64,000 nucleotides of DNA from Isoetes taiwanensis. Its lineage: Eukaryota; Streptophyta; Lycopodiopsida; Isoetales; Isoetaceae. The translations under genes were made by a program, and so were the position numbers. The stretch spans positions 2,164,171 to 2,228,170 of the forward strand of contig JAJEKV010000037.1 of NCBI GenBank assembly GCA_021234155.1. The letters are read 5' to 3'. The notes under the pieces were generated by a model, which saw nothing but the letters and a program-made list of their open reading frames with translations, searched no databases and was not told where the DNA came from. This document shows positions 926 to 34,309 of this stretch, piece by piece. Numbering within the stretch: position 1 is the stretch's first letter; each line of letters opens with the position of its first letter.

Positions 926-1758
926 GGGATGTTTATCATCCAGTATAGTATAGGTGTCATTATCTCCATCCCTGCGATCATGGCATTGGGACATGTTATC
1001 CCCCTCTACTCCATATTCTTGGAGAAATAACTAGCAGAACTGCAGGGTTGGGAAGAAGGCTAGGCAGCCGGTTCGCGTTGGTTTTTCTTCCGTGGAATTC
1101 GAAACGACTTCATTAGACTTCAATAACATGGTTGCCTGTGGCAACCTGATCAGAACTTTGAGGACCCTTGCGTGTGTTGATTAACTGAAATATAGCATCT
1201 GGATATGATTAACATGCAACTTATTTACATAGACTGAAGTAAAGCTCTAAATTATTGACCTTTTCATTGCGACAAGTTTTGAACCGACTACATTAGCAGC
1301 GTCTTGTTCGGCTGGAAGTCCGCCGTCATGATCGGCGACACGATCAGCATTTGCTTCGCGTCCTTGATTCGTGAGAGCATCACATACAACAGCTCACTAA
1401 GATGATGTATATTGGCTCTGAGAATGCAAAGTGGAAAGCTCCCATGAGCAATTTGGTAACACTAAAATGTATAATGAATAAACCTCCGGGAAGTAAAAGT
1501 ACGTTAGCTAAATCTGAATTATTCTTACTCCTTTATTATGGTGTGAGGAACCATCCACTCTGGTGCAAAAGGATGCAAAGGATAGAGGGACATGGAGCTT
1601 ATGATCTACATATATTGGCGTGGAAAGGCACTTAAAACACCTAAAACAAGGACAAATGCAAATCTGTCTATAAGAAGCACAATTTCATTATTTTTGTACA
1701 AAACCTGAATTTATGGACCATTTTTTGGAGACCTACTTCAATAACAATTTTTCCCACA
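926..1758. other. No recognisable gene
   Basis: Unique-looking sequence downstream of the DUF7869-type gene on the other strand. A 77-codon frame at 1402-1635 (+) has no motif. This may hold the 3' end and terminus of the element carrying the next gene, but I could not find a terminal repeat. Confidence 0.35.
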
Positions 1759-4700
1759 CTAACAAGCATCACCAGCGAGTGCTGCATATGCTTCAGCAAC
1801 GGGCACTGGAATCTTGATAGTGTTGGGGATCTTCTTCCTGTTCGATGGAGACCAAGCAAAGTCGATTGTCTCCAACTCAATGCGATCACTAGCAGTAGTT
1901 GGCCTCCATCTTTTCTTCCAACAGTTTACATAATTGGCCGGGTACACCTGGTTCCTTACGGGGACAGGCTCCCACCAAGTGACCTGTACTGTCTCAAAGT
2001 TCTCCTTCTTATCATCCATTTGGGGCTCCTCCGTGGCATACCCTACCCATGTGGGACACAACACGCCATCGGGGCGTGCCATAATGAACATACCTTTCTT
2101 CACGCCCTGAATGGATTGAATTCGGTATGGGTTTATCCTTCAATGGTCCCACGCATGGAGGAGCGATGCTTGCAATTGGTCTGCGATCGCAACCATTTCG
2201 AAGTGAACTCCTTCTTGCCCGGTGCATGGCCGAAGTCCTCATAACTCCCTTCCGTGCACGAAATCTTCCCTAGCTCCCGTAAAAGACCCATCCAATACTC
2301 AATGGTAGCCGTGGAATTGTGCGGAATAGTTGGTCGCTTCCGGGTGCCCTTCTTGCTTGTGGATATTGCAACCCAATGAAGGATGTGCTTGTGGATGCCG
2401 TTTAAATCGCCAAGGTCCTTAATCGTTGCCTTTGGTTTAAGCAGCTTTTGGGTGTTCCTACAGGCATCATGGGCTTCCCCGCCTTCCCCTTCCTTCCACA
2501 TTTTTATACCGCACAGTAGGCAGCCAATCCAAGAAGCAAGGACGGGTTTTGTAATACATGACAGCCACTCTCCATTCATTGCAAATTTGAATGTCGGGGG
2601 TGGTGTGGCCAAATAATCTATCATCGCCATCGGTATGTACCCTTCTATAAACCCCTTCCAATCTGCACTTTATCAACAACGTATGGTACAGTGCATTTTG
2701 ATTGCATGTGTGGAACTCATATAACAATTCGGGCATGGTCAAGACCTCGGCCTTCTTTAGAGTGGAGGAGAAGTTGCCAAACATAGCATCAATGTCTTCA
2801 TGTGTATGTCCAGCATCATGAAACCCAACTCTATCTCCTCGAACACACCAAGATATACTAGGTATGAAAGATACGAGAAAACATACCTGTTTTGTTTTGA
2901 CCAAGCATTGTCCATTGCAAAAGAACAATGTTCTGGGAGGGGCTTGAAAGAAGGTCCTTCTCGCGCGTGCAAGCTTGCAGGATGGATGTTGCTATTGGTG
3001 AGTGCCAATTTCGATTTGAGTGCCGCATTATTACGCAAGGAAGTCACCCAAGCTGGAGCTGATGTTTCCGGCATTGAAAGATGGCCTCCAGGATACTCAT
3101 GAACCATCTCAAGCCTTCTCAAGATGCTATTCAAAGAACCCACATGGAAGTTCGAGTCGTCTGGCCATAGATCCAAAGCAAAGTTTCCATAGCTTCCTCT
3201 CCCATGACCATGAGTAAGAGCACCCGGCCAATGATGTTTTCGGGCCATCCAGCCTCCAAAGTGACTTCACCGATTGCTTTTATTTTGGAATCATTGTCTT
3301 AGCCTGGTCCATCTTATCATGAATTATACAAACATAGTCTTTGGGATGCCTATGGGACAATAATCTCCACGACCAATACTGGGTACGACAAGAGGCTTGC
3401 TCCAACCTGTGTGCTCTTCTCTGGTCATGCAATATCCGTCTTTCCGCCTCATCCTTTGTCTTCAACAGTTTCGTGCGAATGACCTCGCATGTATCACATT
3501 TAGAGAACGGAATTTTTTTGGCGATCATCGACATCCATAAAGCTCCTTTTCCAAGTTCTATGAAATCACTACCGGCGAGACTTTCTTGCCCGCCGGTGCC
3601 ATAACTTCTACATTCACCTCTTCGAGGATGCTTGTTTTTGTAAACATTGCAGGCAACTTCCTAATGTTTTCCCGGATGCCATCTTCATTCCTCCGACTAC
3701 GGTGAGGCAAGGATTCGCAATTCTCCCTTACAAACAAGGAGAAAACAGCCTCGGATGCTAAGGTGGATGCACGAGGCTTCATATCATAGCCCGCGCCTCC
3801 GTGCTACGCTTTCACCGCGAGCACCCTCGATGTATTGTGCTTTCCATTTCAGATACCCTGACTTTGAGATTCCCAGGCCAAGGTACCAGGCTCTCTCACA
3901 TACTGGCCTCCCATGCAACACCAAACGTTCCACTCGACGGCCTTTCATGTTGTTCCCAAGCATGTCATACACAAATGTCACCCTGTCGCTAGACTTCATT
4001 GCATAGAACTCCTTGCGCATGTCGATGACCTGATTCTGTGAGAACTTTGCACAACATCTGTGTTTGCAACACAATGTCGCTCGATATTTCAAAACAGCCT
4101 CCCTAGAGCTAAGGCGTTCAATCTTCGGCTGTTTCAATACCCGCCTACGCTGTCGGGAGTGGAAAGTGTACTTGCGCCTCTCGAAATTTGGATGCTTCTC
4201 AATAACAGAGCTGCCTTGACTTGACGGAGTATCTGCTTGCTCGGTTGGCTTGGCAGACAAGATCTCAGACACCTTCACACCATCCACTGTAACATATTCA
4301 GTACTCCACCTTACAAGCATACCGCTTTGGTACCCAGAAACAAGCTTGACAACGGAAATTCACTTCAGCAGGAATTGGGTAACCTTCCACAATTGTCACT
4401 CCAATGCATTTCAATCCTAAGAACTGGTCGCATACTGCATCATCTGGGCCTGTAAAGGATATGAACCCCTTTCCCGCGGGAATGGAGTCGCAAGAGTGCC
4501 ATATTTCACAGTCCTTCTCCAGTAATGTGTATCTGTTCTGGGGGATAGGTTCCATAGTAGATTCCACTCTCTGTTTTTTGGAGGTGGACCCGACATCCTC
4601 TACATTGGATTCACGCACGTCTTCCTCTCTCCAAAGAATGAAGGATCCTTTGGCTTCTCCTATAGTTTCAGATCCGAGTGGGCCATGGAAGGGCGTGGCA

Positions 4701-4822
4701 CTCCTCAAAACCTCTTGAACACCCACACTTACAGCTCCAAATGATGGTTCTCGAAATGGCACCGCTCGAAGTCTCCAAAGAAATCCTTTGGCAATGGGAC
4801 GACCATCCTTGAAGATGTACAC
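1759..4822 (-). pseudogene. DUF7869-type transposase-like protein, frameshifted
   Basis: The minus strand reads as one long protein broken into about seven overlapping frames. N-terminal segments (4822-3784) hold a basic, cysteine-containing region (LCCKHRCCAKF). The core at about 2940-2760 has MDNAWSKQNRYVFSYL and, in the next frame, GHTHEDIDAMFGNFS. These match the conserved DN..(N/K)..R..(F/L).S.L and GHTHEDID signatures of DUF7869 proteins, which are widespread in repetitive plant and animal DNA and thought to be transposase-derived. A tryptophan-rich C-terminus (WWEPVPVRNQVYP, CWKKRW) ends at a TAG at 1759-1761. At least one frameshift (CG at 3591-3592) is repaired by one base, giving CTG on the minus strand. 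The gene runs head-to-head with the H3-tail-mimic gene at 6.4-11 kb. DUF7869 assignment is moderately sure; activity is unlikely as written. Confidence 0.65.
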
Positions 4823-4899
4823 TTCCCGCGAAGAGAGTTGTCAAAAATGGTGCCGCACTATTTAGAGAAGAAATGTATGTGCCTCCCGACATCGCCCGG

Positions 4900-5440
4900 G
4901 TCGAAATTGGGCGACGCCTGCATTGGTTTTCAAACATCGCTACCGGGGCTATTGGGAAAATAAAATGGCTTCAATTTACATGGCAAATGTACCAGCTTTG
5001 GATTCCAAAGACAACAGCAAAAGCACATCGGGCCACAAGAAATTGGGCGCCGTCCGCATTGGTTTTCAAACATCGCTTTGGGGCTATTGGGAAAAGTAAA
5101 CCGGGCGCCTCGCCAATTTACATGGCAAATGTACCAGCTTTGGATTCCAAAGACAACGGCAAAGCACATCGTCCGCAAGAAATTGGGCGCCGCCAATTTG
5201 TCCCACTTCCCCCGCACGCGGAGAATATATCATGTGTCACCCGAATTGGATGCCCCGCACGCGGTGGTGGTCGGCAAAGTGGGCGGCCGCTTGTTTGTAT
5301 TCCAAAAATGTGCCAGCCTTTGGATTCCAAAGACAATGGCCAAAGCACATCGTTACGCGAAAATTGGGCCGCCAATTTGTCCCATTTCCTGCACGTGAGA
5401 AGACATCATGGGTCACCCGAAATGGATGCCCTGTGGAAGG
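4900..5440. repeat. Degenerate tandem repeat, about 135-180 bp units
   Basis: About four units start near 4904, 5040, 5178 and 5356. Each opens with an AATTGGGC(GCC) half-palindrome. Units 1-2 share TTTTCAAACATCGCT and TTTACATGGCAAATGTACC. Units 1-3 share TTTGGATTCCAAAGACAA followed by AAGCACATCG. Units 3-4 share AATTTGTCCCA and a GTCACCCGAA.TGGATGCC block. The array lies between two divergent genes and reuses the palindrome seen further right. Confidence 0.8.
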
Positions 5441-6020
5441 AATACATGACCACACAATGTTCGGGTTGTCGCGCACAATTAGACCAGTTGTTTCTATAGG
5501 GCTACACAAAAATGGTTGGCTACACAAAACGGCTACTTGGCTCCCAAAGAGTCGACCTTCATTTGTATGAGAACTTGCATGGATCCCCGAAGATGTAATC
5601 ATAAAAGGATTGAATTGGCAGGCCATGCAGAGGCAGATTGTTTAAGGCAGACTCTTCAGTCTAACAGCTAGTAAGGATAGGACAGAAATTGAAATACAGG
5701 TGCTCATGTCAGTAAAAAACATCTTCCAAAAAATGTTTCATAAGTTGTGACTTGATTTAAAACTAGAGAAACAATGCCAAAATCACAGATCTACCATATT
5801 TAAGAAAAATTACCTTGGGAGTCACTTGCTCCATTTAAGTTCTCGGATATACTTGGGTAGGCGCTGAAGAGAGAAGGTTTCAAAAACAGAACGCAATAAA
5901 CATAAATGGGGGGAACTCGAGATCTGAATTTGAATTTATATGGAAATTCAAATTTGGAATTCAAATTCTCCCCCCCCATTTGCATGCATTTAATGTCGGG
6001 CAAACTTCATTGATGTTATT
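5441..6020. other. Spacer between divergent genes
   Basis: No gene recognised. At 5920-5965 and 6075-6100 there are repeated AATTTGAATT/AATTCAAATT blocks able to fold back on each other, with a short C-run at 5972-5979. Confidence 0.4.
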
Positions 6021-6024
6021 TGGG

Positions 6025-6060
6025 ACACGTGCGCGATGTCATTATATCTAGCGCACGTGT
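6025..6060. promoter_or_regulatory. Inverted repeat carrying two G-box (CACGTG) cores
   Basis: ACACGTGCGC at 6025-6034 is repeated as its exact reverse complement at 6051-6060 with a 16-bp spacer. CACGTG is the plant bZIP/bHLH G-box. It lies about 270 bp upstream of the TATA box of the H3-tail-mimic gene, so a promoter role is plausible but inferred. Confidence 0.4.
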
Positions 6061-6310
6061 GTATTTTCAAATACTTTGAAATTTCAAATTTGAATTGTGG
6101 ACCCCCGGCGGGACAACACCCCTTTATTACTTTCAAACACGGCTTGCCATGTGGCGCCCACGTATTGGTGGAGTCCGGATTGCCAGGTGGCGTCTATGAT
6201 TCCGCTCATTAATAACGGCGCCTGCCCATTATTTATGGACTACAACGGTCCATTATAAAGGGAATTTGACACTTGTCCTCATACGGTGCAACCTCGGTGC
6301 ATGCCTGCCT

Positions 6311-6317
6311 TATATAA
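6311..6317 (+). promoter_or_regulatory. TATA box of the H3-tail-mimic gene
   Basis: TATATAA occurs 124 bases before the candidate first ATG at 6441. Transcription would be expected to start around 6340, giving a 5' UTR of about 100 nt. Position and spacing fit a plant core promoter; no transcript evidence is available. Confidence 0.45.
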
Positions 6318-6440
6318 GTATAGTTTATTCTGAACAGACGCATTTTTAACAGTCTGAACTTCCGCTCGGGAAACAGGCGCTTCGTTGTCACCATATCTTA
6401 GGACAAGGCGCCCTTCCACATCTTCACGACACGCCTTCTG

Positions 6441-6471
6441 ATGGATAGTCGTCCTACGAAAGGAAGCAAAG
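6441..6471 (+). CDS. Candidate first coding exon (MDSRPTKGSK..)
   Basis: ATG at 6441 opens 10 codons plus one base and then meets a good donor (AAAG|GTAATG, intron from 6472). The acceptor GATGCAATGCAG ends at 7143. Joining the exons gives GGA-GCA-ATG-GCA, exactly in frame with the ATG at 7149. If this exon is used, the H3-like peptide sits at residue 14 onwards instead of at the protein N-terminus. If translation starts at 7149 this exon is 5' UTR. The sequence alone does not decide between them. Confidence 0.35.
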
Positions 6472-7143
6472 GTAATGCTTCCATCACTGCCGGGTTCCTG
6501 TCACTGTCGATGTATTCTTTAATAATACTTCCGAGGACACTGTTTTTATTTATTCTGTCCAAACACCTATTCTATCTTCCTCTTCATTCTGGGTCTGTCA
6601 TACAGTTACTTCCTTCTAATGAACTGTTCATACAGTAACTTTGTCTGTCATACAGTTACTTCCGTATAATGAACTGTTTTTCCTTCTAATCCCTCTCTAT
6701 TCTTTCCTTCTCATCCACCTACTCAACTATTTGAGCAGGTCGTGTGCCACCTCCATAGTCGTTGGTTTCAACATGTAATGTGCCTGATAGTCCATCCACC
6801 TAACCTAACAGGTGTTTTGGTAGTTAGCCGAAATCTCATCTCTCTTCCCGCTCTGCAAAACGGGCGCCCGCCCTATTTGACACAAATCTTAGCGGGTCAC
6901 GATCCTGTGAGGTTAGTGGCAAGGCATTTCATTGTGAAATTGGGCGGACGCCCAATTTCACAATGACATGCCTTTCCCCTGCCGGCCCCCTCAACCATTC
7001 CAATTGTATGCCCATGGGTTCTTGGACATCTTCCGCCCCCTTTTCAAATTGGGCGCCCGCCCAATTTACTATAAAACTGTGTCAAATTATACTTCATGGT
7101 ACTTTCAGTAAGCAGTACTTATTTCTTGTTTGATGCAATGCAG
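6472..7143 (+). other. Putative first intron with palindromes and a short duplication
   Basis: GT at 6472, AG at 7142-7143. It contains a direct repeat (CTGTCATACAGTTACTTCC near 6595 and 6647) and three copies of the AAATTGGGCG palindrome (6857-6878, 6930-6965, 7046-7067). No open frame of note. Intron status rests on splice-site sequence and preserved reading frame. Confidence 0.45.
6930..6965. repeat. Perfect 36-bp palindrome, 17-bp arms
   Basis: The left arm CATTGTGAAATTGGGCG (6930-6946) and right arm (6949-6965) are exact reverse complements around a 2-base centre (GA). It is the longest member of the palindrome family in this region and would form a stable hairpin in single-stranded DNA or RNA. 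Confidence 0.9.
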
Positions 7144-7148
7144 GAGCA

Positions 7149-8300
7149 ATGGCAAGAACAAAACAGACTGCTCGCATGCCCGGCTATGGTCCTGGGATAC
7201 CGCAGGCTATTGCTGCTGCGAAAGAGACAGAACAGGAATGTACATTCCAAGGGATTGAAGTAGTTCCAGAGGAAATCACTTCTGTTGCTGACCAATACAC
7301 GTGGTGCATTGAAATAGGAAACGTGAATCCTAAGTCGAGCACAAACCATCTCAAGGATTTATGTCTATACTTTGCCGTGCCAGGAACAAAAAAGACAAGC
7401 AATGCTGGGATAGCAATTGATATGCTGGTAAGCGCAGAAGTACCCGGCGAGTTAGAAGTTTACGTGGAGGACGTATTGGACAAGTGCTTCCGTGCATTCA
7501 GACTGCCACTTGCCAATTATGACCCCCAACTCATGTCAGCAAGCATTACCGAAAATCAAAACTCCTGCGCCGCAAAGGGTTGGCAGCTCGACTCATACGA
7601 GAGCTTGGAAAGATCTGGGATTAGGAAGCGTGGAGATGTTATAGACGGCTTCTACACAGTCAGGCAGTGGATTCTTGATCACAAGCAGACCAGGTCGAAG
7701 GGCTTGTATACAGAATATCATGGGAAGGCCCAGCCAAAAGTGTACGACACGGCCTGGTTGAGGTCTCGATATGGAGTTCCGAAAAGGGGAGAAGCAGAAA
7801 AAAGTGCAGAAAAGTCTAAGCACGTAGCAGTTGACAAGGTCACTGTTGCAAAGAAGAAGAGATCATCTTTGACATCAAACCCCAGCACGGAGACGCCAGT
7901 TGTGCTTCTTGGAGGTATGGAAAAAAGACCAAGACACTCTAATCCGAGCAATAGTGCAGGAGAATCTTCTGAACATTCTGCTGATCTTCGGTTGATCAAG
8001 AAAAAAAGAGCAGAAGAACAAGTAGGCACCTCCTCTAAGAAACCAAGACGTCCCACTCCGCCTCAGAGTCCATCTGGGACAAGCGAGGACAGTCAAACAC
8101 ATAGCGATAGTGAAGAAGGGGGATCATTGCCAATGGTACAATATACAAAATTTCTACCGGGAGTTAACACAGAAAGTAGGCGTGAATTATCTCGTGAGCC
8201 CATGTTGAGCATCAAGCATAGGGAGAGGATTTATCCACTTGGTGTTGGGTTCAAATTGACGCCGACATATTCAAGATGCATCAAGCCCCCGCAAACATGA
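7149..8300 (+). CDS. Protein with histone H3 tail mimic (ARTKQTARM) at its start
   Basis: An open frame of 383 codons. ATG at 7149 is followed by codons for ARTKQTAR, identical to histone H3 residues 1-8, then Met where H3 has Lys9, then PGYGPGIP, which is unrelated to H3. Cleavage of the initiator Met before Ala would leave the same N-terminus as H3. Residues about 25-195 look folded and match no family I recognise. Residues about 220-330 are basic and low-complexity with likely nuclear localisation signals (AKKKRSS, KKPRRP), then an acidic Ser-rich stretch. The frame ends at TGA 8298-8300, but coding-like sequence continues in other frames, so the true protein may be longer. The H3 match is seen directly; a role in chromatin is inferred. 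Lys-to-Met H3 peptides inhibit SET methyltransferases, which makes an anti-silencing role worth testing. Confidence 0.7.
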   Translation: MARTKQTARMPGYGPGIPQAIAAAKETEQECTFQGIEVVPEEITSVADQYTWCIEIGNVNPKSSTNHLKDLCLYFAVPGTKKTSNAGIAIDMLVSAEVPGELEVYVEDVLDKCFRAFRLPLANYDPQLMSASITENQNSCAAKGWQLDSYESLERSGIRKRGDVIDGFYTVRQWILDHKQTRSKGLYTEYHGKAQPKVYDTAWLRSRYGVPKRGEAEKSAEKSKHVAVDKVTVAKKKRSSLTSNPSTETPVVLLGGMEKRPRHSNPSNSAGESSEHSADLRLIKKKRAEEQVGTSSKKPRRPTPPQSPSGTSEDSQTHSDSEEGGSLPMVQYTKFLPGVNTESRRELSREPMLSIKHRERIYPLGVGFKLTPTYSRCIKPPQT

Positions 8301-8765
8301 CTTGCGTGGTCATCGCGTAACATGTGGATACCCTTTTACGAATCTTTCATAACTATGCATGCATCCACCATGTGCGATGTCGCTCCATTTGACCCGTCCG
8401 CATGTATGCTATTAAATGGAAGAGAGAAAGTGATTTGGACAACGCTGAATTCTGGATCGAATGGAAATCACACTACGACCGCTGCTCAAATCCTTGTGAA
8501 CTGTGCTTTGGAATGGCCCCCGAGAGGAAGCATTTGAAAGATTTGATTTTTTTCTTTTTATGCAAAGAGAAAGTGTCGGTAATCGGCTGGAAACCTAACT
8601 CCAACGGAATATGTTAAGGTCAGCCAGGAAACAAATGATATCATAGTGAAGACAATCCATGCAGCTGTCTTTTTCGAGGAGGTTCAGCAACTTCGCAATC
8701 AGTGGGAACTGTATGGCAAGCCGAAGAAAGGAAAGCGTGGTCAGTCAACCGAAGGGGCTTACTCG
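8301..8765 (+). pseudogene. Continuation exon of the H3-tail-mimic gene, frameshifted
   Basis: Coding-like sequence resumes at about 8402 (AIKWKRESDLDNAEFWIEW) and switches frame near 8577-8590 to TPTEYVKVSQETNDIIVK, then reaches a donor (TACTCG|GTAAGT) after 8765. Adding one base in each of the CGs at 8577-8578 and 8584-8585 joins the last two frames without a stop. A further single base near 8409-8415 joins to the upstream frame. No family recognised; a CxxC-like pair (CSNPCELC) is visible. Confidence 0.45.
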
Positions 8766-9003
8766 GTAAGTTATCTCCCCATTGAGCTGCTCCATGCAAT
8801 CCAAATCCGGCCCCCGCCTAATTTCAAAGAAAATCGGCGGGCCCCAATTTCACCCAGGCATTGTTCTTTGAATAGGGCGGGCGCCCAATTTCACTCCAAA
8901 TACGGCGCACGCCCAATTTCATACCCTTAATGATCGTCCATATTGTATTTTCGTCCAGATCTTTTGTCGTCTCAACTTATCTTACAGTATCTTTTCTTTG
9001 CAG
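8766..9003 (+). other. Intron, 238 bp, carrying palindromes
   Basis: Donor GTAAGT at 8766 and acceptor TTTTCTTTGCAG ending at 9003 join TCG to GAA in phase 0, so the reading continues AYS|EWLAIAK. The intron holds two clear and two degenerate copies of the AAATTGGGCG palindrome (about 8803-8825, 8831-8851, 8871-8891, 8898-8919). Confidence 0.65.
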
Positions 9004-10069
9004 GAATGGCTAGCTATAGCAAAACAGACCCTGAAGAATAAGAGCATGCGAGACTACGATTACTTCGTCTATCTCGACGAAGAAAGTTGGAATATGTGCA
9101 CTCGTGTGGCTCAACCGCTTTACGAGGACGAAGCCGAAAGGATGAGAATGGCTTATGTAATTGAAGTCAAAGATCGCCCGAGGATGTTCACAAACAATTC
9201 TTGTCGCCATCAAGTCTATGCATCCCATGGACTTGCAAAGATTAATGAGAGAGATCATGGCAGGCACCACGTTCATCAAGGCCACTAAGGCTTATAAAGG
9301 AAGACGTGTCATGAAGACAAGAGCGCAAGAACTAAGGAAAATTGGCATTGTTGAGCGTGCATTACTGAAATATCTAAGAGAGGTGAAGAAGTTAAAAGTC
9401 GAAAAATATGGATGAAGTCGATGGTTTCATCCCATATTCACGAGAGAACCTCATGCGTGATGTTTGCAAACAAAGGTCGATGATTGGACAGAGAGTCGGA
9501 AAGAAGCCGAGAAGGAAAATCTCCCCGAGACTCTAATTACAAAGGTCAACGAATACCTCCGGGACCAGTTGAAGAGGGTTCGGGCTTTCAAATGCCCGAT
9601 CGCCACCCACTAGGGATGTGTGTTAATGTCGGAATACGCCGGACGCCTAGTTGGATGTGACTTCGTGAACATTAAGAAATGGTCGGTAGAAGAGTATCAG
9701 AAATTCATGGATCAGATTAGTATCCTAACGACCAGCAGCTTATAATTTGATAAACGATATTCATCAGCCCGAGTATTTGAATGATTGCTTGGCAAAGAAT
9801 GAAAACAATAGATGGTGGTAGTCTCGTGTGGATTGGAGCCTACAGGGATCCAAAAGCAAAGTCGATCTAAAAGCAAAGTTCGTGGAGCTTCAGAGTGTAG
9901 TCCTTGTCATGTACGTGGGTTCGAGACCAAGCGGCAGCCCTGCACTTGATGACTTGAATCTATGCTTTTGCTGAGAGTGACCATCCACAAATACATTCAA
10001 ATTTCCCCGACCACCTTAAGGAGACGGAGGACATCGAGAAGAAGTTGCCAGACGAGGAGGCTCATGCAG
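9004..10069 (+). pseudogene. Later exon(s) of the same gene, frameshifted
   Basis: From 9004 the frame EWLAIAKQTLKNKSMRDYDY continues to VIEVKD at about 9172. Restoring one base at CG 9175-9176 and one at 9205-9206 joins it without a stop to the frame reading HPMDLQRLMREIMAG, ending in VEKYG near 9415. Past that, frames continue (ETLITKVNEYLRDQLKR; QPEYLNDCLAKNENNRWW; VDWSLQGSKSKVDLKAKF) with several breaks up to a likely donor (CATGCAG|GTATAT) after 10069. I do not recognise the family. Confidence 0.4.
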
Positions 10070-10145
10070 GTATATACTCTCAAATAGGGCGGTCGCCCAA
10101 TTTATGTTTCTTTTTTCGACATAGCTTCTCTTCAAATATTATTGG

Positions 10146-11012
10146 TTGTATCGTCCTTGGGGTGATAAGACCGCAGCTTGGTGGGTCCGACCTCTCGTTC
10201 CCAATCAACTACAAGCCAAGACCTGCACGTATTTGGTCCGCAAACTAATGATGGAGGGTTGCAGCGTTCTTGATTTCTTTTCTGGAGGTTCCTTCAGTCG
10301 TGCAGCGCTATGCGAAGGATACAAAGCAACTTCCTTCGAGGTGGACGAGAACCTGCAGCTGAAGCTAGTACAGATCTTCGATCAACTAGAAGTTATGTTG
10401 GACAAAAATAAATCGATGGCCCGGCGGAGACAGAAAATTGCAGAGGGCAAGAAGAAGAAATCAAGTTCCAAGCCTGTACAGTTAGACTTGAATCCCCTGT
10501 TAGCAAATCCATTCTCTCCTCAGACAGTTCAGGAATTGCAGTCCACTCTCCGCCTGAGTAAGGATTCCCTTTCAGATCAAATTAAGAAGGCTGCAGGAAT
10601 AGGAAGTAAGGATCTTTCCATGTTCCGAATGAAAAAGGATAGAATTAATATGCTGGCAGGTACCCAAGTTGTGAACACTCAGGATGTCGTTGAGGCTACC
10701 TCGAAATTCAATGACATAGTGGACAACGAGCGTGAGGAATCCTTCGTCAAGGACACACCTCAAAGTCAACAGGACGAGGAGCCAGATAAAGAGGAACATC
10801 AAGAGGAAGAACAAAGGGAGGTAGGCAATACAGATGTAGATAAGGAGACCGGTCAGGTAGACACAATCGAGGGAGGGACAGGTGAACAAGGTGCCACGCT
10901 GAGCAATGAAGAATTCATTAACAGGATGGAAGCTATAAAGCAAGCCGCCCAGCAACAACAGGATGAACGTACTGACGTCGGCAACACTGAAGAGAACCCC
11001 CCAGACCCGTGA
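10146..11012 (+). CDS. Terminal exon with methyltransferase-like motif and charged tail
   Basis: A 288-codon open frame with no early ATG, probably the last exon of the gene above. AKTCTYLVRKLMMEGC is followed by VLDFFSGGSFSRAAL and an acidic strand end (SFEVDEN). This resembles the C-terminal SAM-binding motif I of beta-class DNA N4/N6 methylases, where K..YL..L......G..VLD.F.G precedes AAL and E.D. A catalytic DPPY/W was not found upstream, so activity is doubtful. The rest (from about residue 95) is basic, then very acidic and Glu/Gln-rich, likely disordered. It ends at TGA 11010-11012. Methylase-like assignment is tentative; a chance match to a Rossmann-type motif is possible. Confidence 0.4.
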   Translation: MYRPWGDKTAAWWVRPLVPNQLQAKTCTYLVRKLMMEGCSVLDFFSGGSFSRAALCEGYKATSFEVDENLQLKLVQIFDQLEVMLDKNKSMARRRQKIAEGKKKKSSSKPVQLDLNPLLANPFSPQTVQELQSTLRLSKDSLSDQIKKAAGIGSKDLSMFRMKKDRINMLAGTQVVNTQDVVEATSKFNDIVDNEREESFVKDTPQSQQDEEPDKEEHQEEEQREVGNTDVDKETGQVDTIEGGTGEQGATLSNEEFINRMEAIKQAAQQQQDERTDVGNTEENPPDP

Positions 11013-11510
11013 AAAGAGCTTGGAGCTTATGAGAGTTGCCGAAATTGGGCGGGCGCCCAATTTCAGCAGTCCGATCCTTCGAATCACTATCCTATCCTGT
11101 AATTTTGTATGGAAGATGAAATTTATAATCTCGGATCTTGTAATCATTAAATTATGAAATACAAACTTTTCTTGTGATGCTCTTCATTCTATTGAAATTC
11201 ATTTGTTGTATTGTAATTGTTGTATTGAACGTCTGACAAAATTGGGCGGGCGCCCAATTTCTCTTCGCTATACATGTTCCCACTTAGAAATTGGGCGTGC
11301 GCCCAATTTTAACCCGGACGTGAAGTCAGGATGAAGTGCAGAAGAAGTGGAGGTGCAGACCAACGATTTTACAAACTATTCAGGTTCGAAACATGAAGTA
11401 AAATTTACTATGCTTATACATCCTTACATATTTCAGAATTGCTTGAAACATTATATCCTTATTGCAGGTACCCAAGTTTATCAGATGAGAAGAAGATGGC
11501 AAGTAATGAT

Positions 11511-11759
11511 CTAGGGGGACTCTTCCGAGTCATTCTCACCAGCCACCCCAGTGATCTTTTCTATCATGTACATTTGATGCTCTCTATTCCATATCAGATG
11601 GATGATAACATCGAAGGGATCAGGATAATGGCGAGGATTGAGACTCACAGTGGTCATCCAATCTTCCATGGCTATTTCTCGCTCGCGGCACTGCTTGAAG
11701 TTTTCGTGATTCATCTTGCACGTAATGGAATCACGTTCAGGACCAACGGGAGGCCACAT
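11511..11759 (-). CDS. Small ORF, paralogue of the ORF at 11962
   Basis: An 82-codon ORF starting MWPPVGPERDSITC and ending at TAG 11511-11513. Core features are a central Trp (MEDWM), a beta-strand-like FDVIIHLIW and then MIEKIT. The same order is found in the plus-strand ORF at 11962-12228, so the two are homologous. An upstream extension to about 11838 is open but lacks ATG. Function unknown; part of a longer spliced gene is possible. Confidence 0.4.
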   Translation of the reverse strand: MWPPVGPERDSITCKMNHENFKQCREREIAMEDWMTTVSLNPRHYPDPFDVIIHLIWNREHQMYMIEKITGVAGENDSEESP

Positions 11760-11961
11760 GGTTAGACAGGCCAAATTTGTTGGCCAACATTGGTTTGATA
11801 TATATTTATACCAACCAAAATTATTGTTGGTATTATACACAATAATTATTGGATATACTTACCAGTCGTATGTACGCCCAATAATGTTACTACAGTGCTT
11901 CATCAATAATTACTTGGCTATAAGTATTGCCGCATTCGATTGCATAGCACAGCCCTTTGCA

Positions 11962-12228
11962 ATGTCTCGCCGCCCTGCTAGAGTTCTTCAGAGGTCCCAA
12001 TTGCCTCCACCTCCAGAGCATTTGGACACCCTCACTTGCCTCATGACTTTCGACGACCTTCATGCATGCATTATCAAAGGGATCACCCTTGATACCTGGC
12101 TGCATGGTATAGCTACTGGTCGACCGAAAGACTCCCCCGGCGAGTACCATGTTACTATCCATATTGTTTGGGTTCCGGAGCGCGACGCTTATGAGATTGA
12201 CAAAATCACCAATAATTACAATCTATGA
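11962..12228 (+). CDS. Small ORF, paralogue of the ORF at 11511
   Basis: An 88-codon ORF from ATG 11962 (MSRRPARVLQRSQLPPPP) to TGA. It shares with the minus-strand neighbour the pattern PP..(E)..D.(I/L)TC.M....F..C..(R/K).I....W......, then (F/Y).V.IH(L/I)(I/V)W and (M/E)IEKIT or EIDKIT. The two are divergent with about 200 bp between their starts. Family unknown. Confidence 0.45.
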   Translation: MSRRPARVLQRSQLPPPPEHLDTLTCLMTFDDLHACIIKGITLDTWLHGIATGRPKDSPGEYHVTIHIVWVPERDAYEIDKITNNYNL

Positions 12229-12624
12229 GATGTATTTCATAAGTTCATAAGAATTTATATCCAAATGATCATTATAGGTAGCATCCACACTTGGTCGATA
12301 GTTTTCGAGTTGGATTAATTATATTGTGACATCCAGATTTGTATTTTCTCATAAGTCTAACTTGAAATTGGGCGCCCTATTTCCTTTGGAGGCTAGTATT
12401 AAACTTTGTTCAGACCCACAATGAGGGCAAATTGGGCGGGCGCCCAATTTGCACAAAACAAAATGGTGTCTAGGGATTGTGGCCTATGCTCCATCATAAA
12501 AATAGATAGAACCGGGTTCCATTCATTAAGAAATGCATTACATAGATGTCATACACATATTATAAAACGAAATAAAACAACATGCCTCGACATAGGTAGT
12601 TCGACAAAAATGTAATACAAAGTA

Positions 12625-13105
12625 GAAAATATCGGGGTGCCAAATTTTGGTCAATGGCTAGTTCGACTTGAATAAGATCACCCCGATCGAACTCATCAAT
12701 GTAATTTCGCTATACAGTCCAAATGCATTCATCCAATTCAAGGATCGAGTGAGGAGTGTTGACAATGAGCTTGGTTACCAAATCTTCACGCCTTTTCTCC
12801 TTTTTATAAAGCTTCTTAAATAATGGTCCAATGAGTTGTGCAGCCAAACATCCTCTAATTTGAGTAGCCTCTTCGTGGCCTCTCCCTCAGACAAGTCGTT
12901 TCAATGATATCAGGGAAGCTTCCAACTCCACCCTAGTGAGTTGATAATTGTTGTCCTTTAACAACTCATCCCCACGGAGGAGCTTCATGACCTGCCCACT
13001 GATTTCGTTTCTTCCATTCTGATTTATCTCATTCTGCACCTCAACCTGCAATTGATTCGCGTGGGCTAAGATCGCTCATCGATATGGGACTCGCATTTCG
13101 GTCAT
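12625..13105 (-). pseudogene. Decayed coding region, family unknown
   Basis: From an ATG at 13105 the minus strand keeps one frame for about 150 codons with only three in-frame stops and protein-like composition (HANQLQVEVQNEINQNG; TRVELEASLISLKRLV; KKLYKKEKRREDLVTKLIV). It is helical and charged and matches no domain I know. It may be another gene of the element on its left. Confidence 0.4.
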
Positions 13106-13796
13106 TGTGAATCCATACCGACGCCTTCTTTTCAACCATTCTCACTGCTTCGTTATGAATCTATGCTGCACAGATTTGCAAAACAAAGCCTCACTAGCAA
13201 CACCTCACACACAGGACGCGCTTTTCCTTGACCGCGAGTTGGGCGGGCTTGTCCTTGGCTTAATAGAAAAAGCTTCTGCCATATCACCTACCAGCACGTT
13301 CCCCGAAAAATTCCGTCCTTCTATTTAAAAAACCATCATATTTTAGAAATTTGACTCAATTTCGGAGACGTATGGACTCAGGGAAAGTCCATAAATAATG
13401 AAACAGTGCTTTAAGATGGATCAATTCCAAATTGCTCAATATATTTTTTGTACATTCTGGTTTTACACATATGATCAGTTCCGACAGTTTTGCCACATCA
13501 ATGTGCTCCTCTATGTTTTTGTCAAGGTTCTATTCAGCCAAGAATTCAAATGGGAACTGGCTCCAAATAATTGGACCAAATAATCCTAAATGTCAACCTT
13601 CTAAATATTAGGTTTTCTAGATTAAAACGTATGCTTCAAAACTTAAAGCACAATAAATTGTACAATGCTCACTAGATCTCGATGCATGGCTTTATCTTGC
13701 TGCATATTGCAAATGACGCAATAGCTTGCATATCTTAAAGAATATAGAAACTGCATAACTATCTTAGAATATCATTTTTAGTGTGTGCCAGTGACA
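13106..13796. other. No recognisable gene
   Basis: AT-rich sequence with only short frames without motifs. Confidence 0.4.
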
Positions 13797-30505: not shown

Positions 30506-33500
30506 ATGAAGATAGTTAGTTGGAATCTGAGAGGTATTAAGGGTCCTTTAAAAAGGAGGAGAGCTATCTCCCAATTGAGACAATATAATGCAGACATTAT
30601 CTTGCTGCAAGAGTTGAAGCTCCCTAAATTTGAGGCCTCCAATCTGGGAGATTGGATCTACCCAGGGTCTTCTTCAATTTGGATTGAAGCTAATGGTACT
30701 AGGGGGGGCTTGGCTATTATTTGGAAAAATCTGCAGCACATCTCTTACTGCAATAGTGTTTCAAAAATGTGGCAGGCTGTGACCTTTTCCTTGAATAATT
30801 CCACCATTGGAGTCATAAATGTTTATGCCTCTACTTGTCCTAAGGAGAGAGAGAAACTTTGGCCTACAATCAATTCTTGGATTTCAAACAACTCCAACAT
30901 TGATTGGATCCTTGCTGGTGATTTTAACAATACTCCTACTTGGGACATGAAGCTTGGGAATAAAATTAATATGTCTATATCTGAGAGAACCTGTTGGGAT
31001 AAACTTTTAGCTGATTCATCCATGATTCACATTCCATCCTCTACCTCCATTTATTCTTGGTCTAATAAGCAGAAAGGAAGGGACAGAGTTTACTGTGCTT
31101 TAGACAGATTTTATATCTCTAACCCTCACTCGGATCTCTGGGACAATTGTTATGTATCAAGTGATGATGGAACATCTATCTCGGACCACCAACCCCAATT
31201 TCTTTGTACCAAGCATCTGCTAAGTTCCCCAAGGGACATAAACATTCCTTTCAAACTCAACTGCTCTCTGCTCCACAATGTTTCTTTTCAGCAGGAGTTT
31301 GCTGATTTCTATTCTTCTATTGACTCAGTCTTTCCAAATTCTTCTATGAAGAACTTTTATCATAAAATCAAAAAGGCTAAAGACTGGATCAAATCCTGGG
31401 CCAAAGATAAGCATAAAGCAAAAATTCAGGAAAAAGAGAGACTTCTGAGCAAAATGAAAGAAATTAGATCCTTGCTTCAAATTGATCCATATAACCACAA
31501 TCTTCATGTTGGAGAAGAAATTGTTGAGAATCTGATTAAAAATATAGAAGAAAGGGATGCCAGGTTCTCTGCAATTAAATGCAAAATTAAATACAATAGT
31601 GAGATTGATCAGGGCTGCTCAAAATTTTTTCTTTAGAGAGTGGCTAAGTGCAGGCTCCTAAAAATTCCATCAATCGTATTAACAATTATGGTACTTCTCT
31701 CAGTTCTATTCCTGATATTAAAAATTTCTTCTTTGAGAACTACTCCTCTCTGTTCAAAAAAAGTGATCTTTCTGCTACTGAAGTTGTGGACAAAGATAAG
31801 TTCATTAGCAATCTAGACACAATCTTACCTTATCCAATTGATAATATGGATATTTCCCTTCATGCTACTCCCAATGAAGATGAGATATATAAAACCTTGC
31901 TGAGTTTTTCCAAAGATAAGTCCCCTGCCCCGATGGTTTTCCCCTTAATTTTATATACAATTTTGGGATATTATGAAAAAGAGATGTCATCAGTCTTGTG
32001 CATGGATTTTGGAATTCCAATCATCTTCATCCCTCAATTTCTGCTGGTTTTATAACTCTAGTGCCTAAGGTTGACAACCCGAGCTCTTTCTCCTAATGGA
32101 GACCAATTTCTCGACAAATTCATCTTACAAGCTATGTGCTAAAATTATTGCAAAGAGAATTCAATCTTATCTCCAAAAAATATCGATTGTCAATCAAACC
32201 GCCTTTCTCGCCTAATAGATTCATTACGGATAATTACATCGCTGCCATGGAAGGCTTACATTGGAAACGTAATTTCAAATCAATCTTGCATCCTGTTGAA
32301 GTTGGATTTTAAAAAGAGCATTTGATACAAATGAGTGGGACTTTATTGACCTTGCCTTAAAAAGATGGGCTTTCGTGCAAAGCTTATCTCTCTTATACAT
32401 GGATTAAATTCTATGTCTAATTCTCATTGTGTTGATAAATGGTTCTCCCTCAAATTTCTTCCCTTTAGCTAAAGGTGTGTCGACAGGGGTTGCCCCTAGC
32501 TCCCTATCTCTTTCTCATTGTTGCTGAAATGTCGACAAGGAGTGTGTTTCATTTGCAAAATTCGGAGTTTTAACTGGTCTGAAACTCCCAAATAATTTGA
32601 TTCCCTCACAATATCTCAATATGCGATGATACATTTGCTTTCCCGGACTCTAATACCGTAAATGTCAATACTTTCTTGGATCTTATCAAAGAGTTCTCAC
32701 CGCCTCGGGGTCCATCTTAATTTGGATAAAAGTAAGATTATTGGAGATATTATCCACCTTCAATATGTGGCATATCCTGTGCTCAATACCAATCAAGCCT
32801 CTAATCTCTTAGGCATGCCACTTTCTCTCAATCACAATTTAAAAGGGTCTGTGGGATCCAATTCTACAAAGGATAAAGAGAAAGTCAATAATTATAGAAA
32901 CTGTCTCTCTTTTGCAGGAAGGACAATTATTGCAAATTACATCCTAGCTTCTTCTCATGTCTATTTCTCCTCCGCCCTTGTTGCCCCTAAAGCAATTTAT
33001 TCTGAAGTTGGAGAAAGTAATCCAAATTTCATCCGAATGGGTCTCATCTCAGAACCTGAACTCAATCTCTAGACCTAAAATTTGGGAGGTCCGGGATGTA
33101 AAAATCTCCATTTACGTGCTTTTTCTCCGGGCAAAATATATATGGAGAACACTTATGGGGAATAATTCTCCTGCCTCCATTTTCATTGCTCATTGGCTGA
33201 ATATTTCCTATCCTTCCGTCATCCTTCTATTAAGCATTCACTCCCTGAATCTGCCTTTATTAATATTCATCCTGCTCCAAATACTTCTCCTTTGATGAGG
33301 AATATGATTATGGCCTGGAATAAAATCCACCCTGAGCTAAAGAGAGATGATCTCCAAGATGCTACTATGAACACTAGCCTATTTTGGTCACCTATTTTCT
33401 CTGATCCTCATTTAAAAGTTATGGCTATCAAGCATCCAAAAATTTATAACAGATGGGCCACTAAAGGGATCACTACTATCAAGGATCTTTATAGAAATAA

Positions 33501-34309
33501 TAATTCCTTTATTTCTTGGACTGCTTTAAAATCTGTGCTCAGAGGGACTTCCACTGATAAGAAAATGTATGTCTACTTTAAGACTATCCTAGCTACTTTC
33601 AATAATTTCAATGACTTCAATAGCTCGACTGGTTGCACTATAAATGGGATGTTAGTCTATAAGGTAAAGGAAATTTACTCTTTGATAAATGTTGCTGATG
33701 CTCCTCTAAAAGCTATGATGAAATGGTCTTTGGATCATCCCCATCCTTTCTCTTTTCAAAAATGTTTGGAACTCCTACTGCACTCCAAAAATCAGATTCT
33801 TTGTTTGGTTAATTGCACAAAAGAGCCTCACAAATTTGGTTTCTTTGTCTAGGAGAATTAATGTATCTACTGTCTGTCACTCTGGCTGTTTTCAGAACGA
33901 GACTTTAGAGCATATCTTTCTTTGTCCCAAACTTAGACCTTTCTGGATTTGGTTCATTGATAAAACTGGCCATTACCTTAAAAAAAGGAACTTTGATGAC
34001 ATTATTGACTTCGTGCAACAAGGTGATATCTTTGCTAATACTCTTGTCCATACTGCCTTATGGAACATTTGGAAGTCTAGAAATAGAATCCTTTATGCCT
34101 CTAAACCTCTTTCTACTTTCTGGATTAAAATGCATTTCCAGTTAGATATTGAAGCTATTGCCACATGTCACAAGAGGAAAGCTGGAGATAAATACAACAC
34201 TTGTTGGAATGTGATAGGGCTTTTCAGGGGCCACTTTGACTTATTTGTTTCCAACCTCAATGTTATTGATTCTAATGCTCCATACTCTGATTGTGACAGA
34301 TTATCTTAA
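30506..34309 (+). pseudogene. LINE C ORF2 (endonuclease-RT), broken in the RT
   Basis: The endonuclease (30506-31636) is intact: SWNLRG, LLQELK, AGDFNN and ISDHQPQF. A stop follows KFFL at 31636. The RT begins KDKSPAP(M) at about 31915. Adding one base at the CG at 31931-31932 restores PAPDGFPLNF. Further single-base repairs at CGs 32112, 32563, 32624, 32701 and 32706 extend the frame in steps through YADDTFAF to the open frame at 32662-33072. The C-terminus (33193-34309) includes FLCPKLRPFWIWF. Either decay is concentrated in 1 kb or that kilobase is badly sequenced. Confidence 0.75.

Follow-up and report, generated by a model that had tools for sequence, protein, structure and literature searches.

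In Isoetes taiwanensis, a family of DNA transposons encodes a non-histone protein that opens, immediately after its initiator methionine, with residues 1-8 of histone H3 (ARTKQTAR). The copy from which this work proceeds lies in a stretch of 64,000 nucleotides (the window), and its element family is here called family A. What appears to be new is an exact N-terminal H3 mimic in transposable elements, present in many copies and under purifying selection, accompanied in the same genome by LTR retrotransposons that encode H3 variants. With somewhat better than even confidence we favour H3K4-type docking as the role of the window tail, which would sit at the N-terminus of a chromatin protein specific to the element.

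The codons ATG GCA AGA ACA AAA CAG ACT GCT CGC ATG read M-ARTKQTAR-M (Table 1), which confirms the exact identity to H3 1-8 at a protein N-terminus reported in the preliminary description. Its statement that the remainder is unrelated to H3 also holds: Pfam recovers no family for the open reading frame, P0001, at E<=1; PDB sequences return nucleophosmin alone (E 0.92 and 7.4) and no H3; an H3-fold profile finds no match in the six frames of the window (open stretches of at least 25 codons); and a profile of H3 and retrotransposon H3 finds no H3 fold in the relatives L085 and L086. A profile search of PDB with the family-A protein gives one chance-level match (E 3.8), and AlphaFold2, run on P0001 as a single sequence without an alignment, yields a mean pLDDT of 37.7 and establishes no fold. 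The first open frames of L085 and L086 span 532 and 595 codons and run past the point that corresponds to 8300, and we therefore regard the window frame as interrupted there. Six codons upstream of the ATG, the window and the copies closest to it have an in-frame stop; in L085, a more distant copy, the frame is open upstream of the ATG.

Table 1. Features of the window element and of one retrotransposon; positions are those of the window unless a contig is named.
Feature	Position	Strand	Basis or remark
Whole family-A DNA transposon, ~11.7 kb	1675-13411	.	homology limits against the copy on contig C1106
Target-site duplication TAAG	left 1671-1674, right 13412-13415	.	by eye
Left terminal inverted repeat AAGCACAATTTCATTATTT	1675-1693	+	17/19 match to 13393-13411 reversed
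Right terminal inverted repeat AAGCACTGTTTCATTATTT	13393-13411	-	pairs with 1675-1693
Minus-strand ORFs, including DUF7869 (PF25273) ORF 2757-3248	1759-4320	-	Pfam
Weaker AATTGGGCGNGCGCCCAATT site	6858		3 mismatches
Family-A palindrome AATTGGGCGNGCGCCCAATT, 20 bp, site 1 of 9	6938-6957	.	<=2 mismatches
Other AATTGGGCGNGCGCCCAATT sites (starts)	7047, 8871, 8899, 10083, 11043, 11240, 11289, 12430		<=2 mismatches
H3-tail mimic M-ARTKQTAR-M	7149-7178	+	sequence reading and selection test
Mimic-bearing ORF P0001	7149-8300	+	383 codons/aa; frame interrupted near its end
First coding exon, continuation; conserved ...FWIVNGNHTT... block in relatives	8208-8765	+	blastn, tblastn with L085/L086
Probable intron GTAAGT...TTTGCAG	8766-9003	+	splice-like ends by eye; homology dips, then resumes
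Second coding stretch, interrupted in window copy	9004-10069	+	tblastn with L085/L086 ORFs
Methyltransferase-like stretch (NVLDFFSGGSFSRAALCEGYKA motif in L086) and acidic C-terminal part	10140-11012	+	weak assignment
Second conserved ORF, no family	11920-12228	+	68% identical to L085 counterpart
L083 element	C4:268823-284895 (with L153, L109)		Ty3-type LTR retrotransposon with H3 variant

Inverted repeats, 4-bp flanking duplications and a DUF7869 ORF identify the carrier as a TIR DNA transposon; P0001 is thus, as first described, the protein of a mobile region. The terminal repeats and target duplications were examined in two copies, that of the window and one on contig C1106. The alignment of the latter to the window, which has gaps, runs from 1672 to 13411 and begins no more than 3 bases from the inverted repeat; AAAA/AAAA flanks this copy. 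The DUF7869 match (Pfam E 1.6e-11; 44.6 bits against a cut-off of 26) is to what we take to be a transposase domain, and we infer that the minus-strand ORFs are a single interrupted gene of transposase type. This domain has at least 150 matches in the genome (the best 150 of 9907 candidates). Four other ORFs of the window element have no Pfam family above its cut-off, and the same holds for ORF 11725-12225.

The mimic-bearing gene itself appears to be multi-exon, as suggested by the splice-like ends and the course of homology across them (Table 1). Its downstream part is multi-copy, with at least 150 genomic matches to 10248-11009 (the best 150 of 1930 candidates). A PHROG DNA methyltransferase match (E 0.0038) was obtained on the L086 homologue only; the PHROG search of the window's own 10140-11012 stretch gave no methyltransferase match. 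We also considered, by eye, a ParB-like domain around the NGNHTT block and abandoned it, as Pfam, PHROGs, NCBIfam and PDB sequences offered no match. Elsewhere in the window, 31459-32326 and 34052-34188 resemble DNA within L014 and L086 and are other repeats.

Conservation of the tail was assessed among homologues chosen with the whole window protein, which has 109 matches in the genome (2098 candidates). Sixty of these were read as DNA, namely L001-L020 and the next 40 by E-value with a match start at residues 1-4; L010, L012, L013, L016, L018, L019 and L020 were dropped for an internal match start (L013 having a frameshifted N-terminus), leaving 53. The exact octamer is present in 34 of these, including 33 of the 47 that are stop-free over 50 codons and one of the six that carry a stop. 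By position, the H3 residue is retained 51 (A1), 50 (R2), 50 (T3), 51 (K4), 43 (Q5), 51 (T6), 49 (A7) and 45 (R8) times out of 53, position 5 being the loosest of the eight; the substitutes are Q twice and V once at position 2, R and A once each at position 4, and never K at position 8.

In the 37 copies that are stop-free over 150 codons, the tail columns (2-9) combine a pS of 0.688, near saturation, with a pN of 0.062, a ratio of 0.091, as against 0.458 for columns 11-40 and 0.365 for all later columns. Among 143 eight-codon windows, MARTKQTA, which includes the start methionine, and ARTKQTAR have the lowest ratios (0.061 and 0.091), though only narrowly ahead of the third, an internal NHLKDLCL (0.097). 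The tail is thus under purifying selection that acts on the protein and not on the DNA. The preliminary description took intact homologues without the tail to speak against it, and on this point the outcome is mixed. Nineteen of the 53 copies lack the exact octamer, some of them with long open frames: ARTKSTAR is common to three copies, one of which (L008) is open for 581 codons, L037 begins ARIKKTAR in a frame of 608 codons, and L036 reads ARTRQTAR. Against these deviants stands the tail's pN/pS, still the lowest of the first 150 codons.

This pattern bears on two alternatives that grant the tail no H3-like function. In one, the octamer is kept for some other cause, as a basic nuclear signal, an N-terminal stability signal or an RNA- or DNA-level element. 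Three of its eight residues are indeed basic, but the near absence of K/R exchange argues against a generic basic signal, the pS of 0.69 excludes constraint at the DNA level, and identity to H3 recurs in two unrelated element classes; of all the explanations weighed here, we give this one the least credence. In the other, the end of the first exon of a host or retrotransposon H3 gene was passively captured, supplying a start codon and a tail without a role. Transposable elements do pick up gene pieces, the same tail abounds in the retrotransposons of this genome, and a possible 3' splice site, judged by eye, directly precedes the window ATG. Nevertheless, strong purifying selection in the face of near-saturated synonymous sites disfavours such a capture, as does the lack of clear likeness to retrotransposon N-termini past the tail, and we consider it quite improbable. 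A common origin of the family-A and retrotransposon N-termini past residue 8 was likewise set aside, with 4 of 60 column shuffles reaching the observed score.

The selected block ends at R8. At the next alignment column, column 10 (H3 residue 9), pN/pS rises to 0.56, and the 34 exact-tail copies have V in 21, M in 10, L in two, A in one and K in none, such that neither Met nor Ile is a conserved state in family A. The conserved unit is therefore H3 1-8 with its K4, and what the family shares is the loss of K9 rather than the gain of Met. The preliminary description had centred on a K9M change, by analogy with H3 K-to-M inhibitors; the window copy does share M at residue 9 with H3K9M-type mutants, but Met is not conserved, which makes inhibition of this kind unlikely, and we reject it on these counts. 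In this reading a tail without K9 would act as a decoy that occupies H3K9 methyltransferases, so that the element would carry less K9 methylation; Met in the window and in the 10 copies, and 80 genomic sites with M at residue 9, speak for it. It is nevertheless very unlikely to be correct, given that V, L or A stands there in the remaining copies and that conservation stops one residue short. The companion suggestion of a bait for H3K4 readers has fared better and suits the conserved part, H3 1-8 with K4, the docking itself being predicted.

The same tail extends far beyond family A. In the 1.658-Gb assembly (1,658,258,908 bases in 1110 contigs), back-translated ATG-ARTKQTAR is matched exactly 1888 times (904 + 984) and its reversed control not once, which excludes chance and vindicates the initial judgement that a chance match was very unlikely. 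Extension by Met at residue 9 leaves 80 exact matches and extension by Lys 1051 (516 + 535), each with a control of 0. Many different synonymous codon strings occur among the matches listed. No match to ATG-ARTKQTAR was found in the viral_contigs collection. Ordinary H3 genes explain only about 15 of the 1888 tails, since a host H3 query gives 15 full-length matches at 99-100% identity, followed by 135 at 72-89%, many of these in frames of more than 400 codons (the best 150 of 9124 candidates).

A census was taken of the first 50 among the matches listed, all on contigs C1-C125; twenty of the sites, chosen by motif and selected by hand for their varied codons, were read first, and the others followed. 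Of the 50, 38 are of retrotransposon type by eye, seven are decayed H3-derived repeats, two are host H3 genes, two belong to family A and one is unassigned, which places 40 of the 50 in mobile elements. Residue 9 is K in 30, V in nine, I in eight, and E, T and M in one each. As the census includes the seven decayed copies, we reject 1888 as a count of working proteins.

The 38 retrotransposon-type tails look like parts of Ty3-type LTR retrotransposons. Across L082, L083 and L084, a set pooled over three loci and not drawn from one element, Gag, Ty3_capsid, RVP_2, RVT_1 and Integrase_H2C2 score above their cut-offs and the integrase core rve falls below it (27.6 of 32.6 bits). The element at L083 is ~16 kb long, with LTRs of ~1.13 kb at 89.3% identity. 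A primer-binding site directly upstream of the retrotransposon ATG was considered and dropped, since the L083 LTR ends ~1.2 kb upstream. Whereas the window protein has the tail and no fold that we could find, the first ORF of these elements has both tail and histone fold (PF00125, at 6.8e-23 in L083), and the best PDB match of such an ORF is H3.3 (7.8e-22). An H3-fold match follows ~1 kb downstream of the tail in all 17 retrotransposon-type census sites checked, some of the matches being in pieces or weak (L148, 2.5e-9), and the 21 retrotransposon folds compared were 43.8-51.0% identical to host H3. In L083 and L087-L104, the first ORF consists of H3 tail 1-9, a long lysine/glutamate-rich linker and the H3 fold. 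A further long ORF lies between the H3 gene and gag in L081 (4784-6073, minus strand) and L084 (3889-5445, plus strand), for which Pfam has no family.

A search with the fold gives at least 150 matches (the best 150 of 8400 candidates, itself a rough count), and such H3s may run to thousands in this genome. Twenty copies were taken from the best 150, mostly for long open frames, so that the open-frame share is not that of a random sample: 18 of the 20 have a single frame, 386-415 codons long, that takes in both the tail region and the fold; in L105 and L106 the fetched frame lacked the tail. Among the 18, the exact ARTKQTAR is present in 14 and K9 in 17. The pN/pS is 0.068 in the tail and 0.336 in later columns, with the lowest windows (0.00-0.03) in the H3 fold. 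The retrotransposon ORF thus encodes an H3 variant that purifying selection maintains, and as a finding this may well outweigh the tail in the window. With both fold and tail, these proteins would most simply enter nucleosomes.

A second sequence signature of family A lies in its non-coding DNA. All nine window sites of the 20-bp palindrome AATTGGGCGNGCGCCCAATT (6938-12449) fall inside the element and outside its coding stretches, and 100 shuffles produced none. Counted without L031 and L053 (segments of L086 and L085, respectively), the 64 non-overlapping family-A loci, 140.1 kb in all, contain 151 sites spread over 33 of them, whereas the other 90 loci examined (134.6 kb) contain none. Across the window, L085 and L086, 40 of 40 sites are non-coding, where coding sequence makes up 0.49-0.55 of the stretches examined, with coding limits that were set by hand and can favour that result. 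In L086 it forms tandem arrays at 1443-1864 and 3649-4164, with a spacing of ~70-73 bp. The palindrome may be where the protein encoded by the element binds.

From these observations we infer the following for the docking tail. Initiator methionine is removed before alanine, as happens in H3; the family-A protein would thereby expose a free A1-R2-T3-K4 end as H3 does. This end might dock host readers, writers or erasers of the H3 N-terminus around K4, and the docking would either recruit such a factor to the element's protein or keep that protein on chromatin. As residue 9 is mostly hydrophobic and not Lys, the tail cannot carry the H3K9 mark. The remainder of the protein would be an element-specific chromatin factor, probably tied to the palindromes, and probably serving to counter silencing in the manner of VANC for VANDAL elements. 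A docking function is also favoured by a second, unrelated class of element, which retains these nine residues at the head of an H3 variant.

VANC is an element-encoded accessory protein whose gene lies beside that of the transposase and which, to our knowledge, lacks an H3 tail. The carriers differ, with DUF7869 in the window element and a Mutator transposase in VANDAL. According to the published account, VANC targets in Arabidopsis VANDAL elements are short motifs in introns and other non-coding DNA, some in tandem arrays; family A resembles them in that its non-coding DNA holds a motif specific to the element, arrayed in tandem in L086, but the VANC motif is YAGTATTAY and ours is a 20-bp palindrome (PMC5735166).

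Docking around K4 could also serve integration, steering insertion towards or away from H3K4-methylated genes. The occurrence of one tail in both a TIR DNA transposon and LTR retrotransposons would suit this proposal, but the mimic ORF is separate from the transposase-type ORF, and we consider an integration role distinctly unlikely. A wider conjecture, unlikely as well though a little less so, is that the element dresses itself as active chromatin: its protein would sit on the palindromes and present tails that can be read and methylated at K4 but cannot take the silencing mark at K9, the retrotransposon H3s would be nucleosome-competent, and two classes of transposable element would have come, perhaps independently, to use the H3-tail code.

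Histone mimicry is known from viruses and a few cellular proteins, as in influenza NS1 and in the SNAG domains that dock on LSD1, and the present tail extends that theme rather than founding a new category. In all these cases a short H3-like peptide binds, or in family A is predicted to bind, H3-tail proteins. NS1 and SNAG match H3 loosely or at few residues, SNAG likewise at the N-terminus, whereas the family-A tail is identical to H3 1-8 and belongs to the product of a transposable-element gene. Among the papers listed by full-text searches of a library that excluded subscription papers and preprints, we found neither a non-histone transposon protein with an H3 tail nor an LTR retrotransposon with an H3 variant. 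The word 'histone' is absent from the main text of the I. taiwanensis genome paper (PMC8566536). The nearest published case is a hAT DNA transposon of the fungus Pyrenophora tritici-repentis that carries H3-like 'H3L' genes in 26 very similar copies with tail insertions, for which the authors suggest possible drift (PMC3538342). As there described, H3L shares with our elements the many copies of H3-derived sequence on a transposon, and is neither canonical H3 nor CenH3; it is a whole H3-like protein, whereas family A has the tail alone on a non-histone protein, and the retrotransposon H3s, unlike H3L, mostly keep residues 1-9 (18 read) and are under purifying selection (PMC3538342). If the family-A tail does dock H3 readers, imitation of the histone itself would be the transposons' answer to chromatin silencing. 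Its deviations at residue 9 and position 5 amount to a natural mutagenesis of the H3 tail, and the system lends itself to tests with peptides.

Other sequences bearing H3-like tails were also met. The seven decayed census sites (L064, L118, L120, L127, L130, L134 and L141) make up family D. This repeat descends from an H3-type gene and has decayed behind the tail, where MARTKQTARIHP or a similar sequence is followed by stops. L131 (C86:3955-4454) reads MARTKQTAS, stops after 23 codons and fits none of the families seen; its downstream DNA (L152) has no H3-fold match. Among the matches listed for host H3, many are ~80% identical to it from about residue 25, several in frames of more than 400 codons (e.g., C1018:19366698 and C974:15275215), and these are nearer to host H3 than family B is.
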